Of a DNA stretch of 53,643 bases, positions 3,355 through 32,946 are shown piece after piece. Both the position numbers and the translations under genes were made by a program. The notes beneath the pieces were generated by a model. It saw only the letters and a program-made list of their open reading frames with translations. It had not been told where the DNA came from and made no database searches. The stretch comes from an uncultured Bdellovibrionales bacterium. Its GTDB lineage: Bacteria; Bdellovibrionota; Bdellovibrionia; Bdellovibrionales; UBA1609. Position 1 is the stretch's first letter. Each line of letters opens with the position of its first letter. The DNA lies in assembly GCA_938001965.1 (NCBI GenBank), contig CALLBC010000117.1, forward strand, positions 1 to 53,643, in the 5' to 3' direction.

Positions 3355-5187
3355 ATGAGATTAGTATTATTTAGTGGGATTGGAATCTGCCATACGTTAG
3401 TATGGGTTGGTATGAGTTTAATAACACGAATAGCCATCTATTTTGGCATAATTTTTTTATCTACTTCATGCAGCTTCAGCAAGAAAGATCAATGGTCAGT
3501 ATTGATTATTGGTGTTGAAAATCTTGGTTTTGAAGACTTATCATGCAATGGGATCATGGATAGTAATCTTATTGGGTTTAAGAAGCTATGCGAGGACGCA
3601 GTTTATTTTACCCATGCCTATGCGCCATCAACTTACTCTGCTTCTAATGTGGCTACAATATTAACGGCTCAATATGCCTTTGAGCACAAATTACAGGCAA
3701 TGGATTCATTTTTATCTGAAGAAAAAGAAACTTTGCCTGAACTAATGATAAATAATGGATTTAAAACCTCATTTATGTCTAGTGGTGGAGGTTTATTTAG
3801 AAAAAAGGGTGTCGACCAAGGCTTTGAAGTTTTTGATGATAAATTAAAAGTAGCCAGCAACAAACTTTTCAGAAGTGCTGACCAAGTTAATAAGTTATTT
3901 AAGAAGTGGATGAATAAGCAATACAATAAAAAAATATTTAGCTTTCTTTATTACTCTGACCCATTATTCCCAAACTCTGTCACAGTCAGTAATGATAATG
4001 TGGAAAGAAGCTTAACTAGAGGAAGCCAAATAGAAGAATTAAGTGAGTCTATTGAGGGTTTAGTATATTACTTAAAGAGTAATAAGCGGTGGGATAGTAC
4101 TATGGTAATATTTACTGGCTTAAATGGGGTATCAAATAAAGAGAACGTGGCAAAGTTTGACAATTTATTTTCTGAAAATACACATATTCCATTACTGATA
4201 AAACCACCAAAAAAAAATAGAGACCTTGGGATTAGTTGGACAATTGATAAAAATGTTACTTTAGTTGATATAGGGATTTTACTAAGGAAGTACTTTAAGT
4301 TAAGGCTAAACCCCAGTTTTGCACTAAATGAAGATATAAATTTAGTAGAGAGTTTAGAAAAACCAGTTTCAGATTGGGCGAACGAACGCCCAATAATTAG
4401 TGAATCTTCGTGGCTTGGTAAGGGCAAGCAAGTGATTACCAAATATGCTATTCGGTTTGCCAGTATACTCTATTTTCACAAAAGTGAACCTGAGCTATAT
4501 AATTCTTTAATAGATAGGCAAGAGATAAGTAAAATTGGAGTTGAAAGTTATCAGTATAAAAAAATAAATAAAGTATTAGCTGATATTAACTTTTCTATAA
4601 AGAAATCATGGAATAACTACCCAAAAGAAAAGATACTCAGTGATTTTGTTTATCAATTTTGGTTTGATAAGTCAGAAATTGAGCTTTGGCCAGTTGAGTT
4701 TTTGATTGAAGAAAGTAAAACGAATAGTTACTTTTATGAGCTTTTAGTAAACTGGTTATTAAGTAATAAAAAGTGGAATCAAATAAATAAGCTACAGAAG
4801 TATAAGCCCGACGGGGATCTACAATTTATTCTATCCAAGTATCTAGTCGATTATGATATAAAAGATAAGAAGAGTATTTGTTTCTCGGCCTTTATTAATA
4901 AAAATAAGAGTACCTTTCTTAAAAACTGTAAAGATGAGCTTTCTTTAGTCCTTTGGTCTTTTTATAATGAAAAAAATAAAAGTGAAAAAAAGAAAAAGCT
5001 AAGGCTGTTTGCAAGGCTATATAACTTTAGAATGTTAAATAAAAAGATTAATATATATAATATTGCAAATGGGTTTTCATGGTTCTATCCAAAAGAAAAG
5101 TTTGTTACGAACAGTTGGATTGATAAGTTAAAGTTCTTACCAGAGTATAAATCATTATTTTCGCAAGTTAAAAATTTTAAACATTAA
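3355..5187 (+). CDS. Degenerate sulfatase-like (alkaline phosphatase superfamily) lipoprotein
   Basis: The first ~340 residues follow the sulfatase fold: LIIGVENLGFEDLSC, then YFTHAYAPSTYSASNVATIL where active sulfatases carry the nucleophile, then MVIFTGLNGVSN and HIPLLIKPPKK. Key residues appear lost. The metal-binding DD of the first motif is EN, no CxPSR nucleophile is present, and the usual DH/DN near residue 260 is LN. This suggests a binding protein or pseudoenzyme. Residues ~400-610 match nothing I know. The N-terminus is a membrane signal ending STSC, probably a lipobox with lipidated cysteine 39. Start: ATG 3355 has AAGGAA seven bases upstream; ATG 3412 would give a more typical 20-residue lipoprotein signal. 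The end overlaps the convergent radical SAM gene by 11 bp. Confidence 0.72.
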   Translation: MRLVLFSGIGICHTLVWVGMSLITRIAIYFGIIFLSTSCSFSKKDQWSVLIIGVENLGFEDLSCNGIMDSNLIGFKKLCEDAVYFTHAYAPSTYSASNVATILTAQYAFEHKLQAMDSFLSEEKETLPELMINNGFKTSFMSSGGGLFRKKGVDQGFEVFDDKLKVASNKLFRSADQVNKLFKKWMNKQYNKKIFSFLYYSDPLFPNSVTVSNDNVERSLTRGSQIEELSESIEGLVYYLKSNKRWDSTMVIFTGLNGVSNKENVAKFDNLFSENTHIPLLIKPPKKNRDLGISWTIDKNVTLVDIGILLRKYFKLRLNPSFALNEDINLVESLEKPVSDWANERPIISESSWLGKGKQVITKYAIRFASILYFHKSEPELYNSLIDRQEISKIGVESYQYKKINKVLADINFSIKKSWNNYPKEKILSDFVYQFWFDKSEIELWPVEFLIEESKTNSYFYELLVNWLLSNKKWNQINKLQKYKPDGDLQFILSKYLVDYDIKDKKSICFSAFINKNKSTFLKNCKDELSLVLWSFYNEKNKSEKKKKLRLFARLYNFRMLNKKINIYNIANGFSWFYPKEKFVTNSWIDKLKFLPEYKSLFSQVKNFKH

Positions 5188-5965
5188 TGTGAATGTTACA
5201 CTCTATTCGTTTTCTGATTTTTTGAGCAATATTGTATAGAAAAATATCTGTCACAGGCTTTAATGAATTAATATCATGCTTTAGAGTTTCAATGATAATA
5301 TTTTTTGGCTTAAGTATACCAATAATCTCTAAATAATCTTCGATATGTGAATCACTAACATTATTAGTAGGGCCATCAACAAACATAGTTTGAACGCTAA
5401 TGTTGTCAATTTTTTGAGCTGAAAATAACAGTTTATCGATACTTTGCCTAACTATGGGGGAGTTTAACTTTTTTAGAGTGATATCATCTGAACAATCAAT
5501 TTTAAAGTAAATTTCATCATAGTATTGAGTAACATTAAGTGACTTTTTAGTATAGAAGTGTGCACCGTTTGTTAATAGGACAATTTTAGTTGAAGATGAA
5601 ATAGAATTCTTCCACTTGTAAATAGACTCAGAGATTTCGTTAAACTGTGGGTGAAGTGTTGGCTCGCCATTACCAGAAATAAGTATGGTATCAACATTTG
5701 TATTAGACAGAACAACATTATTTAATTTTGATGAAAGTGAATCTGTAATTTTTAGTGAAGAATTAAATTTTAAATTTTTAATGGCATTGATTTTTGTTTC
5801 AGTTTTTCCTAAAGAACAATATGAGCAATCAAAAGAACACATCTTTGTATCCTCTAGTAAAATATTAACTTCAAAGTAATTCCCATATATGGAGCTACTT
5901 TTAAGTTCAGAAACTATAGGGAAGTAATTGGGTGCTAAAATTTGTTTTTTACTTAAATTACTCAT
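5177..5965 (-). CDS. Radical SAM protein, COG0731-like
   Basis: Radical SAM enzymes use a 4Fe-4S cluster to cleave S-adenosylmethionine and start radical chemistry. The cluster ligands are plain: C43, C47 and C50 in CSFDCSYC. The SAM-contacting motif GNGEPTLHPQF follows about 50 residues later. The N-terminal SIYGNYFEVNIL and the SYCSLGKTE context resemble the COG0731 group, which includes wyosine-synthesis relatives and many uncharacterised bacterial Fe-S oxidoreductases. At 262 residues it has room for little beyond the core barrel, and there is no extra cluster domain. The substrate is unknown. It lies 87 bp downstream of the FHA operon on the same strand, so it may or may not be co-transcribed. 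Confidence 0.85.
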   Translation of the reverse strand: MSNLSKKQILAPNYFPIVSELKSSSIYGNYFEVNILLEDTKMCSFDCSYCSLGKTETKINAIKNLKFNSSLKITDSLSSKLNNVVLSNTNVDTILISGNGEPTLHPQFNEISESIYKWKNSISSSTKIVLLTNGAHFYTKKSLNVTQYYDEIYFKIDCSDDITLKKLNSPIVRQSIDKLLFSAQKIDNISVQTMFVDGPTNNVSDSHIEDYLEIIGILKPKNIIIETLKHDINSLKPVTDIFLYNIAQKIRKRIECNIHINV

Positions 5966-6052
5966 CAGTTATCTATCGGATTTTACTATGAAAAACTAAA
6001 ATTAAACTTAATATATGGGCAAAAGACTTGGGGTGTGCAACTAAGGTTTGGG

Positions 6053-6733
6053 TTATTTAATGTCTAGAATACCTAGCCAAAAGGGTAGCTCGGAATTATT
6101 GGAGACCAAATAATCGGAGATCGACTCTAGGGTAACTTCTTCGGCGCTATCTGAAAAATTAAAAGGGTAAATTTGACTACGCTTTATAAGAACCAACTGA
6201 TCATTTTTTTTGCAATGAATTTTTGAAATATTAATATCTATATTTTTATTGGTACCAAATAGTTTTGTTGGTAGGGGAGGGAGCTCGTATTTATCATTGG
6301 CGTATTCACAGCTAAGGTCAGGTTGAGTGTGAATTATGTTAAGATTTGTGCCTCGCTTAAGAAGTATATGAGGCTGTCCTACTTGTGCCATATAAAGAGT
6401 ATTTGATTTTTGAATAAGTACAAAAATTTCAAGTCCACTAACTAATTCTTCTTCATTATTTTTTTTAAAAAATGATTGATTTGCCATTAAGATAGATGTT
6501 CGTAATGTGTTCTCATAAAAGTCTAAGTGATCTAAGCTGCCGAAGGGGGAAGTGAAGTCACGATCTTTAAGTTTTGAACTATAGAAATTTAATATACTTT
6601 CGATATATGGGCTAGAATCAACATTATGTCCCCAGCAAGTTGTAACAATTAAAGATTTATTGTCCTTGTCAAAATGAATCTTTGGATTAGGGTTAGAGAA
6701 GTTACTGCTGTAGGATTTGTTTTCAAATTTCAA
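6053..6733 (-). CDS. Degenerate PP2C-like protein at the end of the FHA operon
   Basis: 226 residues, no signal peptide. The middle (EELVSGLEIFVLIQKSNTL, then YMAQVGQPHILLKRG) lines up in character with the central strands of PP2C/SpoIIE-type phosphatases, where active enzymes have a G-T/S pair and then a GDSR-like motif. Here that motif reads GQPH, and the acidic metal-binding DG and DN motifs cannot be found, so catalysis is doubtful. The start overlaps the stop of the upstream FHA gene by 4 bp, showing tight coupling. Beside three phosphothreonine-binding FHA proteins, a phosphatase-like fold would make sense as a regulator, but this is inference. Fold assignment is tentative. Confidence 0.5.
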   Translation of the reverse strand: MKFENKSYSSNFSNPNPKIHFDKDNKSLIVTTCWGHNVDSSPYIESILNFYSSKLKDRDFTSPFGSLDHLDFYENTLRTSILMANQSFFKKNNEEELVSGLEIFVLIQKSNTLYMAQVGQPHILLKRGTNLNIIHTQPDLSCEYANDKYELPPLPTKLFGTNKNIDINISKIHCKKNDQLVLIKRSQIYPFNFSDSAEEVTLESISDYLVSNNSELPFWLGILDIK

Positions 6734-8745
6734 ATATCACCATATTTCTTAAGTTTTCGTTGAGCCTTCTTATAGTATTCATCTGATTTAACATGAAACT
6801 TTAAGATTTCATTCCATTTTTCTTTTGCGGCAGGAATATTTCCTAGGCTTTCTTCAAGGTTACCATCAGAATAAATTTTTCGAGCTTTGCCCCTTAGTTT
6901 ATTTAAGGCCTGGTAGCGGTACTCAGATGCTTTTTCATTATCTGGATATTTTTTCAGAAACTTTTCACAAGAATAAACGGTTTCCTTGCTGTTTCCACTA
7001 TTATGGTTGCTTTCACAAGAACTCAAAAGGTTTTTCATTTGGCTTTGTAGTGTAGATTGCATTGAAGCAATTTCCCTTTTTGCAAGTTCGCTGTATTTTG
7101 ATTTATTTGGGTAGTTTCTTGATAAAAATGCATTAAATGATTTAATCGATTTTTTAAGTTGTCCGCCGTTTTTTTGAGATTTAGCTCTTTTAATTATAGC
7201 CTCACCTGCATTAATTTGTTTTTGATATGCCAATTTACTTTTTAGTGACTCTTGTTTTTTAGTCTCAATATCATCCCATTTTTGCTGTAGTTGTAAAATA
7301 ATAGGGTGACCAGGATTAAGGACAATGAGTTGGCTTAAGCAATTATCAAGTTCCATTTTAGATTTATATTGAGAGAAATTGTCCTTACATGATTGAGCTA
7401 TTTTATTAGCATTTTCTTCAACTTTTTTAGCTTGAAGTTCCCTTTCTCGTCTATTTCTTTGTTCTTCTTCAATTTCTAGGCCTTGTTGGCATAGGTTGGC
7501 AAGCTGTTTAGAGTTTTTATAAGCAGGAACAAGCTTATGTAGTCTTTCAAGTTCATTGATACACAGAATGTGATTTTTTTCTGTATAGTAATTTTGTGCA
7601 GTATTAAATGAATCACTAATCAGTGTTTGATTTTCATTTGCTTCTACAATCTTTTTCTTAGGTTGTGTTTTTTTAGTTTTTACACTGGCAACTTTTCTTT
7701 TTTTAGTTTTTTCTTGATTCATGTAAAAGTAACCACTGCCAATAATTATTAAGGCAATCATTGCGCGCATAATTGACTTCATTGGGTTAGATTTTTTAGT
7801 CACTTTTTGGTTTGGTACAAAAAAATCGTCATTTGAAAATTGCTCAACATTTAATGGTTTATTGTATTCAAAGTCATTTGTTTCTTCGATTTCAATATGC
7901 TTAATTTTATCTTTGAAAGTTTCATCTTTTAGTTCAATCTTAATTTTTAAAGTTTTAATATCAATGATGTCATCATTATATATTCTAATATGTTCTTTTT
8001 TAGGTAGTTTTTTTCCATTCACTGAAGTGCCATTTGCACTACCAAAATCAAAAATATAAAATCCTTCATTAGTTTTTACTAATTCAAAGTGTTTGCGACT
8101 AATAAACTTATAAGAAAGCTTTAAAGAACACTTATCATCTCTACCAATAATCCAATTATTACCTTCTAACTCATAAGATTTCTTAACCTTTCCTGTAGAT
8201 TTAGACATAATGTTTAGGATTACAGATAATTTATTAGTAGCTGTTAATGTATTTTCCTCTTCATCATCAAGTTCAGGCTCTGTATCTTGTTCTTGTGTTA
8301 GCTTAAGATCTTGGGCTTGATCCGTTTGAGGGGAAGCAAAGCCATCTAAATTTAACTCAGGGCTATTGTCAGGTAAGCCAAAGTCACCAGTGCCAATACT
8401 ATTTTGCTCAGCCTCAGCTGGGTTTAAGTTTACATCCTCTTCAAAAACCTCTTCAGCTTTCTCATATATGAATTCAAACTGTGTTATAGAAAACCTTTCC
8501 CCGTATGGTACAGTTAGTTCCTCTACCGAATCAGAATTATAGTGTAGTTCACCCAGTTTAGAGAGAAGTTCGATTGTAAGAGTTTCGTCGTCGTTAACAG
8601 TAAGCTTCAAATGCTTTCTAGATATACCATTTTTAGTATTTAAAATAATGTCACATTCTTGAGAGCGTCCAACTAAGTATTCTCGTCCAATGCTTAGCTC
8701 ATGTTCAGAAATAACTGTATTATTCGATAGTATTTTTAAAATCAT
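6730..8745 (-). CDS. Membrane protein with two FHA domains and a TPR-like tail
   Basis: FHA domains bind phosphothreonine peptides. The first, near residues 5-75, is partial but keeps VGRSQECDI and SRKHLKL. The second, about 175-265, is complete with IIGRDDKCSL, SRKHFEL and DFGSANGTSVNGKKL. A basic stretch and one transmembrane helix (about 325-342, MIALIIIGSGYFYM) follow. The C-terminal ~300 residues are helical, lysine-rich and repeat-like, with spaced cysteines and TPR-like helices (KNHILCINELERLHKLVP, SYPDNEKASEY-type segments). The FHA part should be cytoplasmic and the TPR part periplasmic. It overlaps the neighbours by 1 and 4 bp. The context suggests a scaffold tied to the Tad apparatus whose tadC begins this operon. 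Confidence 0.85.
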   Translation of the reverse strand: MILKILSNNTVISEHELSIGREYLVGRSQECDIILNTKNGISRKHLKLTVNDDETLTIELLSKLGELHYNSDSVEELTVPYGERFSITQFEFIYEKAEEVFEEDVNLNPAEAEQNSIGTGDFGLPDNSPELNLDGFASPQTDQAQDLKLTQEQDTEPELDDEEENTLTATNKLSVILNIMSKSTGKVKKSYELEGNNWIIGRDDKCSLKLSYKFISRKHFELVKTNEGFYIFDFGSANGTSVNGKKLPKKEHIRIYNDDIIDIKTLKIKIELKDETFKDKIKHIEIEETNDFEYNKPLNVEQFSNDDFFVPNQKVTKKSNPMKSIMRAMIALIIIGSGYFYMNQEKTKKRKVASVKTKKTQPKKKIVEANENQTLISDSFNTAQNYYTEKNHILCINELERLHKLVPAYKNSKQLANLCQQGLEIEEEQRNRRERELQAKKVEENANKIAQSCKDNFSQYKSKMELDNCLSQLIVLNPGHPIILQLQQKWDDIETKKQESLKSKLAYQKQINAGEAIIKRAKSQKNGGQLKKSIKSFNAFLSRNYPNKSKYSELAKREIASMQSTLQSQMKNLLSSCESNHNSGNSKETVYSCEKFLKKYPDNEKASEYRYQALNKLRGKARKIYSDGNLEESLGNIPAAKEKWNEILKFHVKSDEYYKKAQRKLKKYGDI

Positions 8746-9632
8746 TAAAAATTACCCTCCAACATACTCTGACAATACTTTTCATTTTCAATAGCTTCTT
8801 GATAAATCTTATCATCTTTTCTTTTAATCATGAATGCAACGTTTCTAAATGCAGCTCCACAAGCTTTATACTGCTTTTGGTCCTTATATTTTCTTCCAAG
8901 AGTAACATTGTATTGTATTAACTCCTGAGTCTTTTTTTGAGATAATGTTAAATAGCGAGTACAAAGTTTATGGCTCGGGTCAAAGGCCAAGCATCTTTGG
9001 AAGTGTAGAGCGCCTCTCTCGTATTGCCCTTTTTTAAAGTCTCTAAAGCCCTTAACATATTGTGATTGAGCATTTACATTCACTTTGGGTTTAACTCCAA
9101 GATCTTTTAGAGTGACAGGAGTTGTAGAAATAGCTGTTTTTTGACTAGTGATTTCACGTTGAGCTTTCTCAGATAACCCCTTTTCTTTTGGTTGTAACTT
9201 CATGTACCCCATGCCAATTAAAATTAATACAATGAGTATTGAAACAGGGTTTAATCCACCTTTTTTAGATTTTTTCTTTGATGATGAACTAGCTATGCTG
9301 TAGTCACTACTTTTATCTTTTTTAAGTATCATTCGAAATGCTGATGCACCGATTTGAATCGTGTCTGTAAAATCAACTTTAGACTCTTTAATGCTTTTTT
9401 TATTTTTAAAAACTTTATTATTCTTGCTTAAATTTTTAATATAAAAATTATTATTAGCAAAAACAATTATTGCGTGTTGACGGCTAATTCTATTGTCTTT
9501 TGTGAGCGGAACAGTGCAGCTTGGCTCTCTGCCAATAATGCTTTTATTAGAAAGTGGGTAGACCTCTCCCTTGTGTGGGCCAGCCACAACTTGTAGGTAT
9601 AATAATGAATTTGACTCATTATTCTTGGTCAC
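8745..9632 (-). CDS. FHA-domain membrane protein with TPR-like periplasmic region
   Basis: A smaller relative of the downstream gene. The FHA domain spans roughly residues 10-100 and has SIIGREPSC, SRQHAIIVF and KNLSKNNKVFKNKK. The last part takes the place of the usual S-x-NGT loop, so phosphopeptide selectivity may differ. A poly-basic stretch precedes one transmembrane helix (about 129-145, NPVSILIVLILIGMGYM). The C-terminal 100 residues contain paired helices with FKKGQYERGALHFQRCLA and KDQKQYKACGAAFRNVA, typical of TPR units. The 4-bp overlap with the upstream FHA-PAS gene shows coupling. The likely role is as an assembly or signalling partner of the neighbouring FHA proteins, which is inferred. 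Confidence 0.87.
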   Translation of the reverse strand: MTKNNESNSLLYLQVVAGPHKGEVYPLSNKSIIGREPSCTVPLTKDNRISRQHAIIVFANNNFYIKNLSKNNKVFKNKKSIKESKVDFTDTIQIGASAFRMILKKDKSSDYSIASSSSKKKSKKGGLNPVSILIVLILIGMGYMKLQPKEKGLSEKAQREITSQKTAISTTPVTLKDLGVKPKVNVNAQSQYVKGFRDFKKGQYERGALHFQRCLAFDPSHKLCTRYLTLSQKKTQELIQYNVTLGRKYKDQKQYKACGAAFRNVAFMIKRKDDKIYQEAIENEKYCQSMLEGNF

Positions 9633-20774: not shown

Positions 20775-21614
20775 ATGGAAGAGGGTACGTTGGATTTAAA
20801 TATTGATATTAACAGTGTTCCAGTTGTGATTTTAGATCTTGAAACATCTGGTAAATACCCTATTGACTCACAAATCTGTGAAATTGCTGCAGTGAAATGG
20901 CAAGGTGGGAAAGAAGTAGCTAGCTACCAAACTTTGGTAAAGCCAGATGAAACCATGAGTGATTTTGTAATTAAGATACATAATATAACTAATGAAATGG
21001 TGGCCGATGCACCTAAAATATCTGAAGTTTTACCTGAGTTTCGTAAATTTATAGAGGGGAGTATTTGTGTTGCTCACCATGCCCCTTTTGATTTAGGTTT
21101 TTTGTCTTATGATTTTGAGGCTTGCAAAATAGATCTGCCAAAAATTCCTGCAATTTGTACTAGTTTGTTGGCGATTGCACGAATTAAAGATTCGCCGAAT
21201 CATCGTTTACAAACTCTTATGAAGCATTTTGCAATAGACCCAGGTGCTGCTCATAGAGCACTTGATGATGCAAGGTCTTGTGCTGCGGTTCTGTTTAAAT
21301 GCTTGGAGACGTTCTCTGCAAATGTAACTTTAGCTGAAGTTACAGAAGCTCAAGGTAGTAAATTATTATGGCAGAATTTTTCAATGAACGAGTTAAGAAA
21401 AAACAAAGCTCATAAAAACTTAATTGAAGCCGTTGAAAATAAAGTTGAGGTGGACATGGTTTATATGGGGGGCTCTAAGCCAGGGCAGTTTCGTAGGGTG
21501 AAGCCAATATCAGTAGTAAGAAATCCGTTGGGTGACTTTTTAGTAGCCAACGATTTAAAATCACCCAAATTAAAACGATATTATATAAGTAAAATTACAA
21601 AAGTTAACCTGTAG
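20775..21614 (+). CDS. DnaQ-like 3'-5' exonuclease with WYL-like C-terminal domain
   Basis: The N-terminal ~190 residues form a DEDDh exonuclease: VVILDLETSGKYP (D and E), VAHHAPFDLGF (D; the usual Asn in this motif is His here), and AAHRALDDARSCA (H and D). Such modules degrade DNA or RNA from the 3' end, as in the PolIII epsilon subunit. After a linker, residues ~215-279 (VDMVYMGGSKPGQF, RRVKPISV, GDFLVANDLKS, KRYYISKI) resemble a WYL domain, usually a ligand-sensing part of regulators. Start: ATG 20775 is preferred; TTG 20790 with GAGGG upstream is possible, and an ATG at 20718 lies in the palindrome. The stop overlaps the convergent lspA-HAMP gene by 11 bp. Confidence 0.85.
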   Translation: MEEGTLDLNIDINSVPVVILDLETSGKYPIDSQICEIAAVKWQGGKEVASYQTLVKPDETMSDFVIKIHNITNEMVADAPKISEVLPEFRKFIEGSICVAHHAPFDLGFLSYDFEACKIDLPKIPAICTSLLAIARIKDSPNHRLQTLMKHFAIDPGAAHRALDDARSCAAVLFKCLETFSANVTLAEVTEAQGSKLLWQNFSMNELRKNKAHKNLIEAVENKVEVDMVYMGGSKPGQFRRVKPISVVRNPLGDFLVANDLKSPKLKRYYISKITKVNL

Positions 21615-22560
21615 GATCGAGGTCTTCCTTTTTTATGCCTTTGAGTTCAAGCTTATCATTCACTTGATTAAAGTTGCTTTTTACCAGAGCGCGAATTTCT
21701 TCAGCAAGCTCCTCAAGGTGCTCGAACTCATCTCCAGCTCTTAGTTTAAACTTTCGATCTTTACCGCTGGCAATGTCTTTTAAAAAGAGTTCAAAAGCAT
21801 AGATTGGTCCAGCAGTACGGTGAGATAAAATTCGACCAATAATAAATAAAGTGATCATAAAAATTCCACAGATACAGGCAAATGTAATTAAAAATGGAAC
21901 AATAAACTTATTCTCAATGGTTGTGGACCTGCCAATAACTAAATCATCTATAGTTACTTTTAAATAGGTGTAAGAAAAAACGCCACATATGGCAGAAAAA
22001 CCGGCTCCTATAGACATTAATTTTAAGACATATTTAGTTTGAAACCTTGGATTAACCCACATTTGTTTTCGTTCATTTTCATTGGGCCAAAGTTGATTAC
22101 CTTCTTTTATAAGGTTAACAACAATTAAACCATAACCAACCCACTGTAATGCATCAGCAATGTTAAATGCTGGCGTAGCACTCTCTCTGCTTCCAAGAGT
22201 TATAAAATCAACAACTGATCCCCAAGCTATTCTATCGTGTACATTACCAAGAATTCCACCAAGTAAAATTGACATTCCGCACCTTAAGCCAAGAGACTTT
22301 TTTGGAAGTAAGTATTGAATAAAGGTGTATATAAAAACTAAAAATGCTCCACCAGTGGATAGTGAAACAACCCTTAGTACCGGAGGAAGATCGGAGAACA
22401 TTCCAAGCATTGCTCCTGGGTTTCTATGAAGTACAAAACCTAAAGGACCATAAAATTGAAACCCAACAATTGATTCAAGCGCCCATAGTTTTGTTACTCG
22501 GTCTAAGCCCCAAACAATAGCGATTAAGCTAATAACCAAAAACCAATTTTTCTTATTCAT
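21604..22560 (-). CDS. lspA: Signal peptidase II (LspA) fused to a two-helix membrane module with HAMP-like domain
   Basis: Residues ~1-160 are LspA, the inner-membrane aspartyl protease that removes lipoprotein signal peptides. Visible are GLDRVTKLWA, LHRNPGAMLGMF, the catalytic block LGNVHDRIAWGSVVDFI, and FNIADALQWVG with the second aspartate. Normal LspA ends there at 150-170 residues. This one has ~155 more: helix KLMSIGAGFSAICGVFSYTY, a short periplasmic loop, helix VPFLITFACICGIFMITLFI, then a HAMP-like segment (SHRTAGPIYAFELF, IASGKDRKFKLRAGDEF). The start at 22560 has GAAGG seven bases upstream; 22584 is less likely. HAMP domains relay conformational signals, so regulated lipoprotein maturation is possible but unproven. 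Confidence 0.88.
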   Translation of the reverse strand: MNKKNWFLVISLIAIVWGLDRVTKLWALESIVGFQFYGPLGFVLHRNPGAMLGMFSDLPPVLRVVSLSTGGAFLVFIYTFIQYLLPKKSLGLRCGMSILLGGILGNVHDRIAWGSVVDFITLGSRESATPAFNIADALQWVGYGLIVVNLIKEGNQLWPNENERKQMWVNPRFQTKYVLKLMSIGAGFSAICGVFSYTYLKVTIDDLVIGRSTTIENKFIVPFLITFACICGIFMITLFIIGRILSHRTAGPIYAFELFLKDIASGKDRKFKLRAGDEFEHLEELAEEIRALVKSNFNQVNDKLELKGIKKEDLDPTG

Positions 22561-22698
22561 AGACGTACCTTCTGTCAGATTCATTATAGTTAATAGTTTA
22601 TCGGGGAAATGGTTTAATAACTGTGTAGGTATTTGGTCTAGTTCTGAGCAGTAAAAATTACAAATTTTTAATAAAAATAAACTATTTAGGTACTAGAG

Positions 22699-24868: not shown

Positions 24869-27310
24869 ATGAAAAAATTTATATATTTACCAGTAGTTCT
24901 GTTTCTTTTAATTTCTTGTGTATCTCCCAGTAAAGATGGGGAGCGTAGACCATCTTCCGTAGAGGGTAATGTACAAATCCCCGAAGGCTTTAATCATGCC
25001 GAAGAAGATATATTTTGGCATCTAAGTGAGGGGGCTGATGTATACCCTTATGCTTGGGCTAAAAACTTAACTAACTTAAATAATGATGGCTCTGAATATT
25101 TAAAAAATATGGATAAAAAATATAATATGATTAGTGACTATAGTGTCACTGATAAAACAACAAATTATTTAGTTCCATATATTGGTATTTCTGTGGCCTG
25201 GAGTGGTCGACGAGATTTATCTGCGAATATTCGTAAGAGCGATAATAATTTAGATAAGGTGATGTCACACATTAATGTTAATGGTGAAAAAAGCATTGCC
25301 ATGATGGGAACTAACTGCTCTTTATGCCACACAAATGTCGTTAAATATAATGGCAAAAACAGATTAATTGAAGGTGGTGGAGCTATTTTTAACCCTCGTG
25401 CCATGTTTAAAGATATGGCGGCTTCAACGATTCAAACCATGATTGACCCCATTGAACTATCAAAATTTTTGATGAAGTTTAATTACGATAAAGACTCAGC
25501 TGAAAAAGAGGCTTGCAAATTTGTTGCAGACATAAGGTTTAATGTAAAAAGAATAGCAAAAAAGAAAGCAAAAAAGTTTGATTATTTTCCTAAGGAAGAA
25601 TGTGAGAAGAATATAAATATTTATAGACAAGCAAGTAATGAAACAGATGGGAAAATTGACGGACTGGTAAATAGATTTCGTACAAATTTTATGAAAACCA
25701 AGGTCTCTAAAATAGTAGAAGAGAAAGCTGCAAAGACAAAAACTGCAATTCAAGAAGCTCTAGGAGCAACAGACCCTAAGACAAAACGAGACCGTGAAAT
25801 ATTAAGGTATCATCTAGAAGAACTGTTACTGTTAACCGTTTTACGAAATGGCAGTCAAAAAGGCTCTCGTAGTGATTTAAACGATGAATTAAAATCTCGT
25901 ATGAACTGGTTTTCAAAGTTGGCTTTAAGTTGGCCAAAAGCTAAAGAGGCTCATGCTGGTTATGCAAGAACTGATGCTTTTGGGCGTATCGGTAATACCG
26001 TAGCTAGGATGTATGATCCAGTGCCATTAACCGCCAACGTATCATTGCCGTCCATTTGGGGTGTTAAATATAGAGATTTATTTCACTACAATGCAAACAC
26101 CAATTCAGTGCTTATGCGTAATATTGGTCAATCTTTTGGTTTAGGTGCAGTTTTAATTAAAGACTATGCAAAAGATGAATTAAGGCCTGCAACACCAGAG
26201 GGCTTTAAAAAGGGGGCTTATCGCGCCACCACTAATATTCCAGGCTTAATTGAGTTGGAAAACCTAATGTATAAAATAAAAGTTCCTCAGTGGACTAAAA
26301 TTATGGGCGATGACATTGATAAAATGAAAGTTATTCCTGGGTGCAAAGTGTACTTAAAGTACTGTGTTGATTGTCATAGTAGTAATGGGAGAGTGGGGCC
26401 AACTGAAGAGCTGATAAAATATAAAACTTTTCCATTAAACACCATTGGCATGCGCACCGATCCTAACCAAGCTGTGATGCAAGCAAAACTTATAAAAAAT
26501 AAACATTCACCACTTAAGTCACTAAGACAGGGGATCCCACTTAAAGATGCACTCTTCACATTTACTCAAAGTGTAAGAGATCAGTATTTACATGATAATC
26601 CACAGGCCCGCGACCCTCAAAGACCAGATCGACTATTAGCTATGAGAAGTTCTCGTGACTTGCGTGGTAAAGAAGAGTTTAGAGACCCTTACCTAGGAGA
26701 GGTTAAAGCTGAAATGAGCTATATGAATTTCCTTGATCGTAATGGCAGGCCAATGGAAGGCAAAGGTATCGGGACGGGGTATGCTGCCAGGCATTTAGCC
26801 GGTGTTTGGTCATCTCCTCCATTTTTACATAATGGTTCTGTGGCCAGTATTATGGAGCTACTCACTCACCCAAGTTTAAGAAAAAAACAGTTTGATGTGG
26901 CTACAGTTGACTATGACCCAAGAACATTAGGTTATAGATCAAGGTACTCAAGTGCTAACTTAGCAAAAAGGTGTAAAACCCATGAAGATGAGTGCTTCAC
27001 TGCTGAAGATGAGTCACACCATAAGTATTTTTATGGTGAGCTTGATAAATACATGAAAGGTAAAAGAAGAACTCTACCGGGTGTGGCTGAAGCTACAGGT
27101 GATGGTAATAGTAACTTCGGCCACTATAAACAAAGATGGAATGAAATGACTCCAGAAGATAAGGCCAATTTAATTGAATTTTTAAAGGTTCTTAAGCCTG
27201 TTCCAGAATATGCTTGGGAGTCTGAAGACAACTATTACCATTTAGAAAAAAAACCAATGGAAAACGCTTATACCTGTAAGCCTGGAAGTAGAATTTATAA
27301 AAGCCTATAA
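24869..27310 (+). CDS. Dihaem c-type cytochrome lipoprotein, RoxA/MauG-superfamily-like
   Basis: The signal peptide ends at a lipobox (LLISC, lipidated C17). Two covalent haem sites are present: C150-S-L-C153-H154 and C499-V-D-C502-H503. The stretch from ~385 (LPSIWGVKYRDLFHYNAN, then MRNIGQSFGLGAVL) and the later HLAGVWSSPPFLHNGSV match a family that includes rubber oxygenase RoxA and related dihaem cytochrome c peroxidase-like proteins. Length 813 exceeds RoxA (~680), mainly through a helical, lysine-rich insert at about 200-330. It should sit on a membrane facing the periplasm or cell surface. It is first in an operon with the P450 lipoprotein 15 bp downstream, so electron or peroxide chemistry shared with that enzyme is plausible. 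Substrate unknown. Confidence 0.85.
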   Translation: MKKFIYLPVVLFLLISCVSPSKDGERRPSSVEGNVQIPEGFNHAEEDIFWHLSEGADVYPYAWAKNLTNLNNDGSEYLKNMDKKYNMISDYSVTDKTTNYLVPYIGISVAWSGRRDLSANIRKSDNNLDKVMSHINVNGEKSIAMMGTNCSLCHTNVVKYNGKNRLIEGGGAIFNPRAMFKDMAASTIQTMIDPIELSKFLMKFNYDKDSAEKEACKFVADIRFNVKRIAKKKAKKFDYFPKEECEKNINIYRQASNETDGKIDGLVNRFRTNFMKTKVSKIVEEKAAKTKTAIQEALGATDPKTKRDREILRYHLEELLLLTVLRNGSQKGSRSDLNDELKSRMNWFSKLALSWPKAKEAHAGYARTDAFGRIGNTVARMYDPVPLTANVSLPSIWGVKYRDLFHYNANTNSVLMRNIGQSFGLGAVLIKDYAKDELRPATPEGFKKGAYRATTNIPGLIELENLMYKIKVPQWTKIMGDDIDKMKVIPGCKVYLKYCVDCHSSNGRVGPTEELIKYKTFPLNTIGMRTDPNQAVMQAKLIKNKHSPLKSLRQGIPLKDALFTFTQSVRDQYLHDNPQARDPQRPDRLLAMRSSRDLRGKEEFRDPYLGEVKAEMSYMNFLDRNGRPMEGKGIGTGYAARHLAGVWSSPPFLHNGSVASIMELLTHPSLRKKQFDVATVDYDPRTLGYRSRYSSANLAKRCKTHEDECFTAEDESHHKYFYGELDKYMKGKRRTLPGVAEATGDGNSNFGHYKQRWNEMTPEDKANLIEFLKVLKPVPEYAWESEDNYYHLEKKPMENAYTCKPGSRIYKSL

Positions 27311-27325
27311 GGCGCCGGAGATAAG

Positions 27326-30313
27326 ATGAAATTAGTACTAATAATAGCAATGAGTTTATTAATGTTTAGTTGCACTAACCCAAAACAATCACGTTACCCA
27401 GCACAAGCAGGTTCGCAAGCTGAAGATTATGGTAAGGTCAAAGTTCCTAGGCAGGTTAAAAAAAACCATTATGGATCTAATTTTTTTGATGATTATGAAC
27501 AGGCTGATGAGGGAAAAAATGTTGCAAAAATCATAGGTAAGTTGGCCATATCTCAAGCTCGAGAAGCAGCCCCACCAATTGGTAGTGAGAGCTTTAAAAG
27601 CTTTATAGGAAGAACTATTAAAGATGAAGCCAAAGCATTTTTAGGTCCGCTTAAATATAAGAAAATGGAAGGTAAAGTCGATGATGGTAGGAACGAGCTT
27701 TATAAAACTTTGAAACTTTTAGATTGGATGCGCGGTAACCCTTTAGAGTTATTTAGACAACTAAGAGAAAGCCCTGACTTCGAAGGAAAATCAACAGATG
27801 AATTTAATCATCACTTTGTAACGGGGCCATTGCCAGGTGTAAAAAAATACTATGAAGATGGTGAGCTTTTGCCAAGTGGAGAGAGAATGCTAACAACGAA
27901 GGAAAACCCTCGTACAGTATTTATTGTTCACAATGATGACGTAAGAGAGGCATTAAATACAGCTAAAATGGGTGAAGGTTCTGCTAACCCAGAAGATAAA
28001 GTATTTTCAGTGGCATTTTATAACCCTAAAATGGACATGGCTGTGGGTTCAGAATTCATGCTAGCTAAAGAGTTTGGTTTTACTCGCCAAGAAAAAATGG
28101 AAATGAGAAAAATAATGCGAAGAGAGGATATGGACTATATAAGAAGTCAGGCCACTCGACTTGCTAAACGAGCTATTAGACAAAGTAATGTTGAAGGGCG
28201 AATTGAAATTGTGAATGCCGTAGCTAGACGTGTGCCCGTTGAAATGACGAGACTCTATTTTGGTTATAAGGCTGACACAAGAAGTATAATGAGATGGTCC
28301 AGAGCTATGCAAAGAAGCTTTTTCCATAACCCAACTAATAAACCTTCACATGAAAGAAGAGCTAAGAAAGCTGGAGAAGAAATGCGAGAGCATTTGCGTG
28401 GAATGCTTGTTAAGCATTTGAAAACGGGGAACCATATTGGTGAAAATACTATTTTTCATCGCTTAGTGAATCACCCTATACCTGAATCACTGTCAAGACA
28501 TATAAGTAGTTTGGAGTATGATACTACGACCGATAAAAGAAACAGAGCCTGTGTAGGTGCTAATAATATTTATAATGTAAGCACAGAAAAGTGCATATGG
28601 TATGAGCGAATAGTGGCTAATGTTATGGGTACACTGGTTGGTGGTATTGAGACCACACAAGCGGCCATAGTTAATACCGTGGACTTCTTTTTAGATAACC
28701 CAAATCTTATGCCATTAGCTGTTACTGCGGCTCAATCTCATGAAAGCAACCCAGATAGAATGGCTGCTTTTGTTTGGGAGGCGTTAAGGTTTAGACCTAT
28801 TAACCCAATTGTTATGCGTTATGTGCAAAAAGATTATACGTTTACAAAAAGTGGAAGACAGGTAAAAAAAGGCGATGTGGCCATGATTTCAAATTTGTCG
28901 GCCATGCATGATGATTCAGGTGATAACCCAGCAATTTATAAACCAGATAATTTTATTGTTGGCAGGGGATCAGTGAATGCAAATAATAGACATACAAGGC
29001 AGAGGCCTGGAGCAGCAAATGGGGCCCGTGGAAATGAAACACGAGATGATGCCTATTATTTTCACTTAGGTAATGGTAGCCATAAATGTTTAGGGGATTA
29101 TGTGGCGCAAGCTTTAGTGCCAGCAGTGGTAGCTGAAATTTTAAAAATGCCTAATTTAGATAGACTTGATCACAATAGCTTAGCTGAAACTAAATATCCA
29201 AATGCTAAAATGCAACATGGGTTTATTGATTTCCATGATAATATTGGTGCGCTAGAAAATGATGAAGATCAAGATGTTTCTACTGGATTTCCAGAGTCTT
29301 TAGTTTTACAAACTGACAAGTTATCTCAGAATGATCTTGCAATAAACCAAAGAGAAATTCATGGTGCAACCATTGCCGATCCAAGGTTTATTTTTGAAGA
29401 TTTCTTGATGGATTATGATAAAAATGACTTTAGAACATGCTTAAGCGACGTAGACAGAATTGATGAAGCAGCAGAGGTACTAAAAGAAGAGCTTAAGAAT
29501 GACCCTGAAGGAGCCGTTGCAAGTTTAGCTGCAAAAGATAAGGTTTGGGTCGACGGATTTTATAATAGAACAACATCTAGTGCAGCTACAGATTTATTTT
29601 ATTGTCGTTTGCCAAGAACTTTTAGAGCTTGTATTCAAAAAGGCCCTAAAGGTGTTAGGAAAAAACTATTCCATATTAAAGAAAACTACTTAACTAGATA
29701 TGAGGCTTGTAAAGGAAAGCTTACTCCAAGAGAACAGTACTTTTACAAAACAGAAATCTTAAGTATATTGCCTAAAACTTGGTATGACAAATATGTTCGT
29801 CCTCAGTGGTATGCAAGAAATGGTGTTAATAAATACGGAAGAACACCATTAGCAATAAGTAATGTACCTCGTGTACATAACTCCATGTTTAAAAAATTAG
29901 GTAGAAGTCCATCTCTGCATAAACATGAGCCTTGGGAAAAAGAAATAAAGTTTTATGATCGTGCTAACTATCGTCAAACTTATATGAACCCATTTACTTT
30001 AATAGCTTATCCTAAAAGTGATGTTACTGGTGGAAACAATCTAAACTTCTACACAAGAGTGGATCTAGATTTTAGAAAGTGTAATAGTAAAACAGCTACA
30101 AAAATGGTTAAAAAGGAAGTTAAGTCTGCTAAAGTGAAATTTAAAATACCATTTCTAGGGTTTGGAGTTGGAAAAAAAGAGATAAGCAATGGAGAAGAAG
30201 ACATTGCTAAGGGCCAAGGCCGATTTAAAGCTTATGAAGCTTGTATAAAAGAGAAATATGCAATGCCAGACTATATTTATAATCACTATAAAAGAACATA
30301 CATGGGCTTGTAG
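27326..30313 (+). CDS. Cytochrome P450 lipoprotein with long C-terminal extension
   Basis: A 995-residue protein with an export signal and lipobox (SLLMFSC, C16) yet containing a full P450 core. Seen: I-helix GGIETT (G439-T444), K-helix E485-A-L-R488 in EALRFRP, and the haem loop FHLGNGSHKCLG with thiolate ligand C588 (pattern FxxGxxxHxCxG). The N-terminal P450 portion includes VFIVHNDDVREAL and RRVPVEMTRLYFGY. Residues ~660-995 are an extension with several cysteines and no family I recognise. Bacterial P450s are normally soluble and cytoplasmic, so an exported, lipid-anchored one is unusual. GGAG lies five bases before the ATG. It is sandwiched between the dihaem cytochrome and the papain-like lipoprotein. 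Substrate and redox partner are unknown; the cytochrome is the obvious candidate. Confidence 0.88.
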   Translation: MKLVLIIAMSLLMFSCTNPKQSRYPAQAGSQAEDYGKVKVPRQVKKNHYGSNFFDDYEQADEGKNVAKIIGKLAISQAREAAPPIGSESFKSFIGRTIKDEAKAFLGPLKYKKMEGKVDDGRNELYKTLKLLDWMRGNPLELFRQLRESPDFEGKSTDEFNHHFVTGPLPGVKKYYEDGELLPSGERMLTTKENPRTVFIVHNDDVREALNTAKMGEGSANPEDKVFSVAFYNPKMDMAVGSEFMLAKEFGFTRQEKMEMRKIMRREDMDYIRSQATRLAKRAIRQSNVEGRIEIVNAVARRVPVEMTRLYFGYKADTRSIMRWSRAMQRSFFHNPTNKPSHERRAKKAGEEMREHLRGMLVKHLKTGNHIGENTIFHRLVNHPIPESLSRHISSLEYDTTTDKRNRACVGANNIYNVSTEKCIWYERIVANVMGTLVGGIETTQAAIVNTVDFFLDNPNLMPLAVTAAQSHESNPDRMAAFVWEALRFRPINPIVMRYVQKDYTFTKSGRQVKKGDVAMISNLSAMHDDSGDNPAIYKPDNFIVGRGSVNANNRHTRQRPGAANGARGNETRDDAYYFHLGNGSHKCLGDYVAQALVPAVVAEILKMPNLDRLDHNSLAETKYPNAKMQHGFIDFHDNIGALENDEDQDVSTGFPESLVLQTDKLSQNDLAINQREIHGATIADPRFIFEDFLMDYDKNDFRTCLSDVDRIDEAAEVLKEELKNDPEGAVASLAAKDKVWVDGFYNRTTSSAATDLFYCRLPRTFRACIQKGPKGVRKKLFHIKENYLTRYEACKGKLTPREQYFYKTEILSILPKTWYDKYVRPQWYARNGVNKYGRTPLAISNVPRVHNSMFKKLGRSPSLHKHEPWEKEIKFYDRANYRQTYMNPFTLIAYPKSDVTGGNNLNFYTRVDLDFRKCNSKTATKMVKKEVKSAKVKFKIPFLGFGVGKKEISNGEEDIAKGQGRFKAYEACIKEKYAMPDYIYNHYKRTYMGL

Positions 30314-30322
30314 GAAGGTTTA

Positions 30323-32212
30323 ATGATTAAGCATGTAATTACAGTTTCTATGGCCATTTTATTTTTATCATGTGCCAGTTCAAATAATAAAAACAGAAAA
30401 GTTTCTTCTGAGAAATCTGTTGGTTATTATACCTCATCTTTGTTGGATATTACTGCTCACGAGGGTGAGCTAACTTTATTTGGTATTAAGTGGAACGATT
30501 TGCTTAATCAAGAGCTTTACCCGGCAGAGGTGTTTAAAAATCCACGTGAAAGTCTAGTCATTAAAAAATTGCCAACCCCAGAGCAAGTTTATAATAACTA
30601 TGAAGATTTAGTAAAACTGATTGAGCGTAACCTAACTTTTAGAGCAAAGGCAGTAAGCTTCTTAGATGACCTCAATAAGCATAGAATAATTAAAAAACGT
30701 GAAATGGCAGTATGTGTGAAAAAAAGCACAAGCAGAAAAGAGAAAAAAGCTTGTAAAGATAAAAAAATTGTAATGAGCCCAGCTCAAACCACGGCCTTAA
30801 CAAATGGGGCTAAAGAATTTTTACTATTAAGGTACTTAAACACCTATGTAACTAAGCTATATATGTCAAAAGCTAAAGTTATTTTAGAAACTCAAATTAG
30901 ACATTTGGGAGAGGTTAATTTAAATGATCGAGAGCTAGTTGAAGTTTTTATCAGCCTTGCAGCAGCTCTGACTCTTTATGACAATTATGTGCTCATGGTT
31001 GAACAGTTTGAACGTGATTTTGAGATTAACCGTATTTTTAAGGCTGGAATCGATACTTTAGGAATTCCAAGTGATGTTATCGAAAGAATCTCTAAGAATT
31101 CTAGAAAAATTAAATACCGCGTAGACATTAATAGAGTGGTGGAATGGCTAGAAAGAGAAAATTTTCAATTAAAACCTAACGAGTATAATGAGTTAGATAA
31201 GGCTTATAATTACTTATTAACTTATATAAACTCAACAGCTGGATATAAAATATTTAAACGTTCCTATTTAGTAAATATGTGGGAAGTTATTTATAGAAGA
31301 GTATGGCAAGGAGTTGTTATTGCTGGTATTCAGCGAGCCGTTGGTGCTGAACGTAATGTGGCTAATGAACTCAGTGAAGCCTTTGGTAACACAGTTGGTT
31401 TAATTGAATCAAGAAAAGGCTATATGTATTTAGGTCATAATGGGAAAGTGAGTAAGAAAATAAAAAAAGTAGGTTTTCGTAAAGTGAGCTTACAAAAAAG
31501 AAAAGATTATCATTTAAAAATAAGAGAAATGTTAAAACCAGGAGATGTTCTTTTAGAAAAAACTCCGTTTAGATTAACGGATAAGTTTATTCCAGGGCAT
31601 TGGGGGCATGTGGCTGTATGGACAGGCACAATCACAGATTTAAAAGAAGCGAAGCTATGGGACTTGGTTCAAGATACGCGTGAGTGGCTGAGCTTAAGAA
31701 AGGATCAGAAAGCCTATATTATGGAGTCATTAAAAGATAACCCTGAAGACCCAATTAAAGATAGAGCTATCTTAGAGGCTTTAAGGCCAGGGGTTCAGTT
31801 AAATGACCTTTACCATTTTTTAAATGTTGATGACGTTGCCATTTTGAGACCAAAGCTTGAAGGTAAAACTGATTTGGAGCGTAGGTCTGAGATGGCTGAG
31901 ATAATAGCTAATGGCTTTACTCATGTTTTAAAAGATTATGATTTTAACTTTGATGTGAGAGATACAAATAAAATTGTTTGTTCAGAGCTTGCTTGGCATA
32001 CCTATACAAACTGCCACTTTAAAACCCAAGTGATAGCCTCACGAGCTTCAATAAACCCTGATGATGTTGCTGATGCAGTGTTTGGTGATGTAAATGGCAA
32101 ATCATGCTTTTCAACATCATATATTGTTCATGATGGAGAAGAGGTTGACCCTAAAGAATACAATTTAGATGAAGCTTTAAAGTCATTAAATCTGAAGAGC
32201 TCACTGAATTAG
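30323..32212 (+). CDS. Lipoprotein with C-terminal YiiX-like permuted papain (NlpC/P60-type) domain
   Basis: Lipobox FLSCAS gives lipidated C17. Residues ~40-390 are helical and unassigned. The C-terminal domain (~405-570) looks like the YiiX/YebB group of circularly permuted papain-fold amidases: KPGDVLLEKTPF, then FIPGHWGHVAVWTG with histidine H429, and NKIVCSELAWHTY with nucleophile C553. This group cleaves amide or ester bonds in cell-wall peptides or lipids; the substrate here is unknown. AGGAAGG precedes the ATG, 9 bp after the P450 stop, so it is the third gene of the lipoprotein operon. Its stop is 5 bp from the convergent oxygenase gene. Confidence 0.8.
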   Translation: MIKHVITVSMAILFLSCASSNNKNRKVSSEKSVGYYTSSLLDITAHEGELTLFGIKWNDLLNQELYPAEVFKNPRESLVIKKLPTPEQVYNNYEDLVKLIERNLTFRAKAVSFLDDLNKHRIIKKREMAVCVKKSTSRKEKKACKDKKIVMSPAQTTALTNGAKEFLLLRYLNTYVTKLYMSKAKVILETQIRHLGEVNLNDRELVEVFISLAAALTLYDNYVLMVEQFERDFEINRIFKAGIDTLGIPSDVIERISKNSRKIKYRVDINRVVEWLERENFQLKPNEYNELDKAYNYLLTYINSTAGYKIFKRSYLVNMWEVIYRRVWQGVVIAGIQRAVGAERNVANELSEAFGNTVGLIESRKGYMYLGHNGKVSKKIKKVGFRKVSLQKRKDYHLKIREMLKPGDVLLEKTPFRLTDKFIPGHWGHVAVWTGTITDLKEAKLWDLVQDTREWLSLRKDQKAYIMESLKDNPEDPIKDRAILEALRPGVQLNDLYHFLNVDDVAILRPKLEGKTDLERRSEMAEIIANGFTHVLKDYDFNFDVRDTNKIVCSELAWHTYTNCHFKTQVIASRASINPDDVADAVFGDVNGKSCFSTSYIVHDGEEVDPKEYNLDEALKSLNLKSSLN

Positions 32213-32217
32213 TTGGG

Positions 32218-32946
32218 TTAATTAATAATTCTTGAGATCCACATCAGTCCTAATTTAAAATTAACCCCGGTGGCTTCAAAGTCAGATGAGCAATGAATAT
32301 GGGAGCGATCCCATATCACTGTGTCTTTGATCTTCCATTCAAAGGGGTGCTCAATAGTAAATCCTCGCATTTGTTTTTCCCTATCAGGGCAGCACTTCCA
32401 ATATTTTTTATAGGTTTCAGGAGATAAAGAAGTTGAAAAGTCTAAGAGCTCCACAAACTTTTGCGCTTTAAGATCTTCTTTGATATTGGGGAAAGAGCTA
32501 GAATGGTAACACTTTTGTTTTAAAATTACGGTGTGTGTTTTTTTATCATCAGGCTTATTGATTAAAGGAATAATTCCTTGTTTATAAATGAGCTCTTCTG
32601 AATCATAGCCAGAGTCAGTATGTATTCCGTAAGGCTTTTTATTAGCATGAAAGGCAACATCAAACTCAATATTTAAATCATTATTTTTATTAATGAGTGG
32701 AGAAAACTTTTTGTTAAGAAAATCACAGATCTGCTTTTTTAGTTCACCCACGGGATGGCCAGTGAGGTCATTATCAGTGGCAGTGGCATCTTGCAAGCGA
32801 GTACTAGTAACACTTTTATTAGAAAAGCATTGCTCAGACCACTGAGTCATAGTTTGAATCTCTTGAGTACTAAAAAAGTCATTTAACTTAATTACAGGCC
32901 CTTCATAAGATTTAATTTTTTCAATAAGCTCAGCACTTTTAATCAT
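32218..32946 (-). CDS. Probable 2OG-Fe(II) oxygenase
   Basis: 242 residues, no signal peptide. The pattern fits a 2-oxoglutarate/iron(II) dioxygenase: FHANKKPYGIHTDSGYD contains the HxD pair, IIPLINKPDDKKTHTVIL supplies core strands, and DTVIWDRSHIHCSSDF plus NFKLGLMWIS supplies the distal histidine and a basic residue for 2-oxoglutarate. Such enzymes hydroxylate proteins, lipids or small molecules. The match is by motif order and spacing only. It is convergent with the lipoprotein operon (5 bp between stops), so it is not co-transcribed with it. Upstream lies the tandem hairpin array of element E. Confidence 0.65.
   Translation of the reverse strand: MIKSAELIEKIKSYEGPVIKLNDFFSTQEIQTMTQWSEQCFSNKSVTSTRLQDATATDNDLTGHPVGELKKQICDFLNKKFSPLINKNNDLNIEFDVAFHANKKPYGIHTDSGYDSEELIYKQGIIPLINKPDDKKTHTVILKQKCYHSSSFPNIKEDLKAQKFVELLDFSTSLSPETYKKYWKCCPDREKQMRGFTIEHPFEWKIKDTVIWDRSHIHCSSDFEATGVNFKLGLMWISRIIN

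Follow-up and report, generated by a model that had tools for sequence, protein, structure and literature searches.

Can a cytochrome P450 work outside the cytoplasm? To our knowledge, P450 enzymes are not known to act there, and bacterial P450s are, as far as we know, regarded as cytoplasmic and reductase-dependent. The window, the whole 53,643-nucleotide stretch of Bdellovibrionales DNA that was analysed, carries a P450 gene between genes for a dihaem cytochrome c and a papain-like hydrolase. The original prediction was that the three products are lipoproteins forming an envelope pathway on a hydrophobic substrate. In the literature searched, no bacterial P450 was described as exported by nature, and there was no paper on a RoxA–P450–Bdellovibrio combination.

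The open reading frames confirmed three co-directional genes with gaps of 15 bp (genes 1 and 2) and 9 bp (genes 2 and 3), as had been claimed (Table 1). Purine-rich ribosome sites were found 5' of gene 2 (GGAG-like) and gene 3 (GGAAGG-like). The N-termini of the products of genes 1–3, MKKFIYLPVVLFLLISC, MKLVLIIAMSLLMFSC and MIKHVITVSMAILFLSC, respectively, are short and hydrophobic and end in a lipobox-like cysteine (C17, C16 and C17). The residue before this cysteine is Ser in all three products, and the residue after it is V, T and A, respectively, Asp being present in none. With N-region, hydrophobic core and lipobox cysteine judged by motif and hydropathy only, all three products are predicted lipoproteins, as originally proposed. 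A signal peptidase II gene (PF01252) with a C-terminal extension of ~165 aa is located 2.3 kb upstream of the lipoprotein genes. A gene for a 242-aa protein, which matched no Pfam family, faces the operon.

Table 1. Positions of the features discussed. L numbers denote loci outside the window.
Feature	Location	Position	Strand	Product or extent
Gene 1, predicted dihaem c-type oxidase lipoprotein	Window	24869–27310	+	813 aa, NF040606 ('di-heme-cytochrome C peroxidase') subfamily
Gene 2, ORF of P450 protein	Window	27326–30313	+	995 aa
Gene 2, predicted exported P450 part	Window	27326–29305	+	residues ~1–660
Gene 2, cysteine-rich C-terminal region	Window	29306–30313	+	residues ~661–995, ~320 aa
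Gene 3, predicted lipoprotein with C-terminal Peptidase_C92 (YaeF/YiiX) domain	Window	30323–32212	+	629 aa
Signal peptidase II gene	Window	21604–22584	−	
Gene facing the operon	Window	32218–32946	−	
DUF1304 gene	L074	9860–10228		
DUF1304 gene	L070	9119–9484		
DUF1304 gene	L018	12314–12676		
Second P450-like lipoprotein	L071 (G221)	6013–8112		
COX-family protein with YRWH, directly after P450	L086, rhizobial plasmid	7140–8828		
COX-family protein with YRWH, directly after P450	L087, rhizobial plasmid	7224–8849		
COX-family protein with YRWH, directly after P450	L091, rhizobial plasmid	6194–7882		
Gene cluster of an NGR234 plasmid	L025	3196–9249		
P450/Dyp-type peroxidase protein	L090, Novosphingobium plasmid	4800–9131		1443 aa

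The gene 1 product scored 254 bits against the NF040606 model (curated cut-off 150) and was assigned to this subfamily. The two predicted CxxCH haem sites were located at C150 and C499. Covalent attachment of haem in an extracytoplasmic location is plausible, since the same genome has a gene for a cytochrome c assembly protein. The RoxA-like signature that had been noted stood as far as the motif goes: the RoxA-like Pfam motif (PF21419) is present, and 4b2n matched the C-terminal region. His752 is invariant and aligned with the GGH histidine near the RoxA C-terminus (4b2n). By this alignment, its RoxA counterpart is probably H641, which is listed among the haem-binding residues of RoxA (PMC4496055). 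Membership of RoxA, RoxB or RoxC was rejected, the scores being 23.1–23.7 bits against curated cut-offs of 900–1000. W397 is a candidate for an inter-haem Trp. The AF2 model of gene 1 (pLDDT 35) was too poor to use.

Gene 2 carries the complete P450 core that had been described, with the I-helix GGIETT (439–444), the ExxR motif (E485/R488) and the haem-thiolate Cys588 loop. It scored 43.6 bits against PF00067 (gathering cut-off 22.8) and was thus assigned to the cytochrome P450 superfamily. Foldseek with the gene 2 model gave P450 matches across the domain, down to E 8e-11, with only part of the core confident. The clade of this P450 has the motifs WSRAxQxxFFHN and HLGxGxHxCLGDYV, and in the tree the paired P450 clade was placed apart from the canonical Bdellovibrionota P450s with support of 100/100. 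The tree gave no resolution on single versus multiple origin of the exported forms. A search for a viral or phage origin of this P450 returned no match.

The I-helix acid–alcohol pair marks O2-activating monooxygenases and is, as far as is known, absent from CYP74, TXS/PGIS and CYP152. In the self-sufficient P450s of the CYP74, TXS/PGIS and fungal LDS types, it has been lost or swapped for amide or nonpolar residues, and CYP152 has Arg-Pro in its place. Gene 2 keeps the pair as ET and so lacks this mark of the self-sufficient types; nearly the whole clade retains it as well. Among individual P450s of the PDB, a CYP152 member scored best in the sequence search (6fyj, E 2.7e-5). CYP152 membership was not supported (19.6 bits against a model cut-off of 600, and the GGIETT I-helix), and a profile search showed no preference for CYP152.

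The cysteine-rich C-terminal region of gene 2, ~320 aa, had been missed by the original prediction. A profile built from such tails matched, at 32 bits, a separate 256-aa protein in L022/L023, which adjoins the P450 and has its own signal peptide. This separate tail homologue supports export of the whole gene 2 protein. A RecA match in the C-terminus was sub-threshold and inflated by RecA fusion chains, and it was discarded.

The YiiX-like catalytic pair of gene 3 was borne out: the product scored 68.1 bits against Peptidase_C92 (cut-off 27), and both the His (in GHWGHVAVW) and the Cys (in VCSELAW) are in place. The suggested check on whether the YiiX-like gene is always third gave a negative answer. 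Among the genomes examined, the window alone has a C92 gene near the dihaem/P450 pair, in third place. C92 homologues of gene 3 were found in 26 of the 141 genomes of the order, away from the pair. For the other genomes, neighbourhoods without C92 ruled it out as a conserved third member. Gene 3 is probably a co-transcribed passenger or accessory hydrolase outside the conserved module. Its role is optional at best, because among the genomes examined a C92 gene lies near the pair only in the window.

The pairing of genes 1 and 2 was conserved. Full-length NF040606 proteins were detected in 19 of the 369 Bdellovibrionota genomes searched, and in 12 of these 19, window included, a P450 of the window clade was at most one gene away (G000, G051, G057, G058, G132, G210, G221, G243, G244, G246, G263 and G271). 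The chance expectation was about 0.06 genomes, in a statistic that ignores kinship; the twelve genomes span six families. These 12 of 19 genomes contradict the refuting outcome named beforehand, conserved neighbourhoods without the pairing. When GTDB-species contigs were scanned with a P450 alignment, nine loci were recovered, each with the title of a Bdellovibrionota-type MAG. The gene 1 homologue adjoined the P450 or was one small gene off in seven of them; of the other two, L021 ends before the partner position and L024 is ill-resolved. The order and orientation of the pair varied (tandem both ways, divergent and convergent), which argues for selection on the association. The pair is also patchy: G002, a genome of the same genus, carries the dihaem gene but lacks the P450.

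Every Bdellovibrionota clade P450 adjoining a partner had a predicted N-terminal hydrophobic export signal. A lipobox-like cysteine was observed in the window, L016, L017, L022/L023, L070, L071, L081 and L083, and ordinary Sec-type signals (signal peptidase I type) in L018–L021, L021 being without a visible partner. The conserved unit is genes 1 and 2, a predicted exported oxygenase pair in which the P450 is mostly lipid-anchored. Genes for a small membrane protein, DUF1304, were located between or beside the pair in L017–L019 and L070, while in L074 such a gene adjoins the dihaem gene; some loci of this kind are without P450. In L071, the pair is followed by a second P450-like lipoprotein without the cysteine-ligand loop (FLHFRRSGMAQIRDQV), which is apparently a degenerate or haem-less P450 copy.

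When the window P450 was searched against 72,556 plasmids (7.3 Gb), only ten matches were obtained, all rhizobial or from Methylobacterium. In six of them (two Bradyrhizobium and four Methylobacterium), an NF040606 gene was adjacent or one gene off. In three others (R. etli, R. gallicum and S. medicae), a PF03098 gene, for a protein of the cyclooxygenase (COX) family, directly followed the P450, and the tenth match was weak and partial. The R. etli PF03098 partner aligned with prostaglandin H synthase 2 (PGHS-2) over residues 18–494, nearly full length, with E about 5e-57, and it keeps the Tyr385/His388 (YRWH) and Tyr348 (YINH) positions. A COX-family search of the window genome gave no match, and the controls in the same search also gave none. 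More distant P450 relatives either adjoin Dyp-type peroxidase regions or are fused to them; a Novosphingobium plasmid protein, for example, contains both regions. The window P450 clade thus accompanies haem enzymes of the fatty-acid-dioxygenase type or the peroxidase type.

The alphaproteobacterial P450 relatives that were read had no signal peptide, and no in-frame signal peptide was seen upstream of the Bradyrhizobium P450. A compartment shared by P450 and partner is therefore not general. An oleate hydratase gene was found near the Bradyrhizobium pair. On an NGR234 plasmid, a catalase-like gene, an unassigned gene, a dihaem cytochrome c gene and a patatin gene are clustered, the dihaem gene being flanked by the catalase-like and patatin genes; this cluster looks like another oxylipin set. 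Neighbouring genes for an oleate hydratase, a patatin and an alpha/beta hydrolase were each seen once.

An export-signal P450 beside an exported dihaem oxidase suggests an extracytoplasmic, two-step oxidation of lipids of the fatty-acid type. The dihaem cytochrome c, of the RoxA/FadCcp superfamily, would add O2 to an unsaturated acyl chain and so make a lipid hydroperoxide. This hydroperoxide would be both substrate and oxidant for the P450 encoded next to it, which would be anchored in the same compartment. The P450 would isomerise the hydroperoxide or hydroxylate it intramolecularly, the product being a diol, an epoxy-alcohol or a related oxylipin. The substrate would be a fatty acid or a phospholipid acyl chain, own or foreign, and the C92 protein may give support as an acyl- or amide-hydrolase. 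With the hydroperoxide in both roles, the P450 would need no NADPH and no redox partner, neither of which is expected in an extracytoplasmic location.

For this pair, the substrate, the dioxygenation by gene 1 and the use of a hydroperoxide by the P450 are all putative. Dioxygenation followed by hydroperoxide conversion was proposed because of the type of the partner haem enzyme and because of precedents. PA2077/PA2078 are RoxA-grouped exported dihaem proteins that act as periplasmic oleate 10S-dioxygenase and diol synthase (PMC4496055), and fungal DOX-CYP, TXS and PGIS are P450s that process hydroperoxides or endoperoxides without a reductase (PMC13049297). The intact acid–alcohol pair (GGIETT), the naming of NF040606 as a peroxidase and the signal-less alphaproteobacterial P450s count against the hydroperoxide model. 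With these points weighed, we hold the two-step scheme, with a reductase-free exported P450, at slightly under an even chance. That the exported, mostly lipid-anchored P450s form a lineage for reductase-free envelope oxylipin synthesis, acting in the compartment of a dihaem dioxygenase that supplies the hydroperoxides and convergent with COX–P450 and fungal DOX-CYP systems, is a reading somewhat less likely than not.

The conserved acid–alcohol pair makes a conventional monooxygenase, supplied with electrons by some periplasmic donor, the strongest rival. The P450 would be an ordinary O2-activating enzyme that hydroxylates a hydrophobic substrate, with electrons arriving via the dihaem cytochrome or the DUF1304 protein, and the retained ExxR motif and Cys loop and the DUF1304 genes of L017–L019, L070 and L074 are consistent with this. 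However, no DUF1304 gene lies beside the window pair, a reductase gene was not seen in the neighbourhoods examined, and three rhizobial plasmids swap the partner for a COX-family enzyme, which is no electron donor. The haem potentials of RoxA, −65 to −160 mV (PMC4496055), also look too high and thus poorly suited to reducing a P450. We regard such a monooxygenase as unlikely. Peroxide defence, in which the dihaem protein would clear lipid hydroperoxides or H2O2 with help from the P450 as lipid-hydroperoxide reductase or isomerase, would fit the name of NF040606 (di-heme cytochrome c peroxidase), the Dyp-type peroxidase regions beside or fused to P450 relatives and the catalase-like gene adjoining the NGR234 dihaem gene. 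Yet the pair is patchy and missing from the closest genus mates, unlike a housekeeping defence, and its substitute partner, a COX homologue with the catalytic Tyr, points to hydroperoxide production. This makes the defence reading quite improbable.

The prediction of polymer or lipid oxidation survived on the lipid side, as the family context favours fatty-acid-type oxygenation, that is, oxylipin chemistry, and not polymer cleavage. RoxA-like extracellular cleavage of a polymer or polyisoprenoid, with the P450 as secondary oxidase, could explain the PF21419 motif and the 4b2n match in the C-terminal region of gene 1. It is very hard to reconcile with RoxA/B/C scores of 23–24 bits, the lack of polymer-degradation genes alongside, and relatives near oleate hydratase and COX-family genes. 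As for the predicted three-gene pathway, in which the C92 lipoprotein would free the acyl chain on which the products of genes 1 and 2 act, the 9-bp junction, shared direction and lipobox speak for it, as do two hydrolase-type neighbours elsewhere, the patatin gene next to the dihaem gene of NGR234 and an alpha/beta hydrolase gene next to the L081 pair. It is nevertheless a reading that we doubt, since the other genomes examined had no C92 homologue near the pair and the C92 relatives within the order are located elsewhere. An envelope pathway on a hydrophobic substrate is thus probably right for the dihaem/P450 pair and not for a three-gene system.

A P450 clade that bears export signals and is conserved next to an exported dihaem oxidase offers a testable case of extracytoplasmic P450 chemistry. 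Through its members beside rhizobial COX-family proteins, the same clade would link the oxylipin pathways of eukaryotes to bacterial dioxygenase–P450 pairs. In Bdellovibrionota, the pair may also be a source of oxidised lipids, envelope or secreted.

Several known systems resemble parts of the pair. CYP152 fatty-acid peroxygenases are bacterial P450s able to work without a reductase, as is proposed for gene 2; unlike gene 2, they are, as far as is known, cytoplasmic and without the acid–alcohol pair. Gene 1 shares two CxxCH sites, the C-terminal motif and export with the rubber oxygenases RoxA, RoxB and RoxC, whereas it falls far below their family cut-offs, has no rubber context and has a P450 partner. 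The cyanobacterial linoleate 10S-dioxygenase with a catalase-related hydroperoxide lyase (Brash et al. 2014, JBC 289:13101, cited in PMC13049297) is likewise a bacterial tandem of dioxygenase and hydroperoxide-processing haem enzyme; it combines a COX-like with a catalase-like protein, and the window a dihaem c with a P450. Fungal DOX-CYP fusions and COX with TXS/PGIS (PMC13049297) join a fatty-acid dioxygenase, putative in the window, to a P450, and rhizobial relatives of the window P450 adjoin a true COX-family protein. In contrast to these systems, the window partner is a dihaem c-type protein encoded by a separate gene, both products are predicted to be exported, and the P450 keeps its acid–alcohol pair. 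The oleate diol synthase system of P. aeruginosa, PA2077/PA2078 (FadCcp), consists of exported, RoxA-grouped dihaem c proteins encoded in one operon, and there too the hydroperoxide passes to another haem enzyme for conversion (PMC4496055). That other enzyme is also a dihaem protein, whereas in the window it would be a predicted exported P450; the known likeness of gene 1 to FadCcp comprises the RoxA-like motif and the two haem sites.
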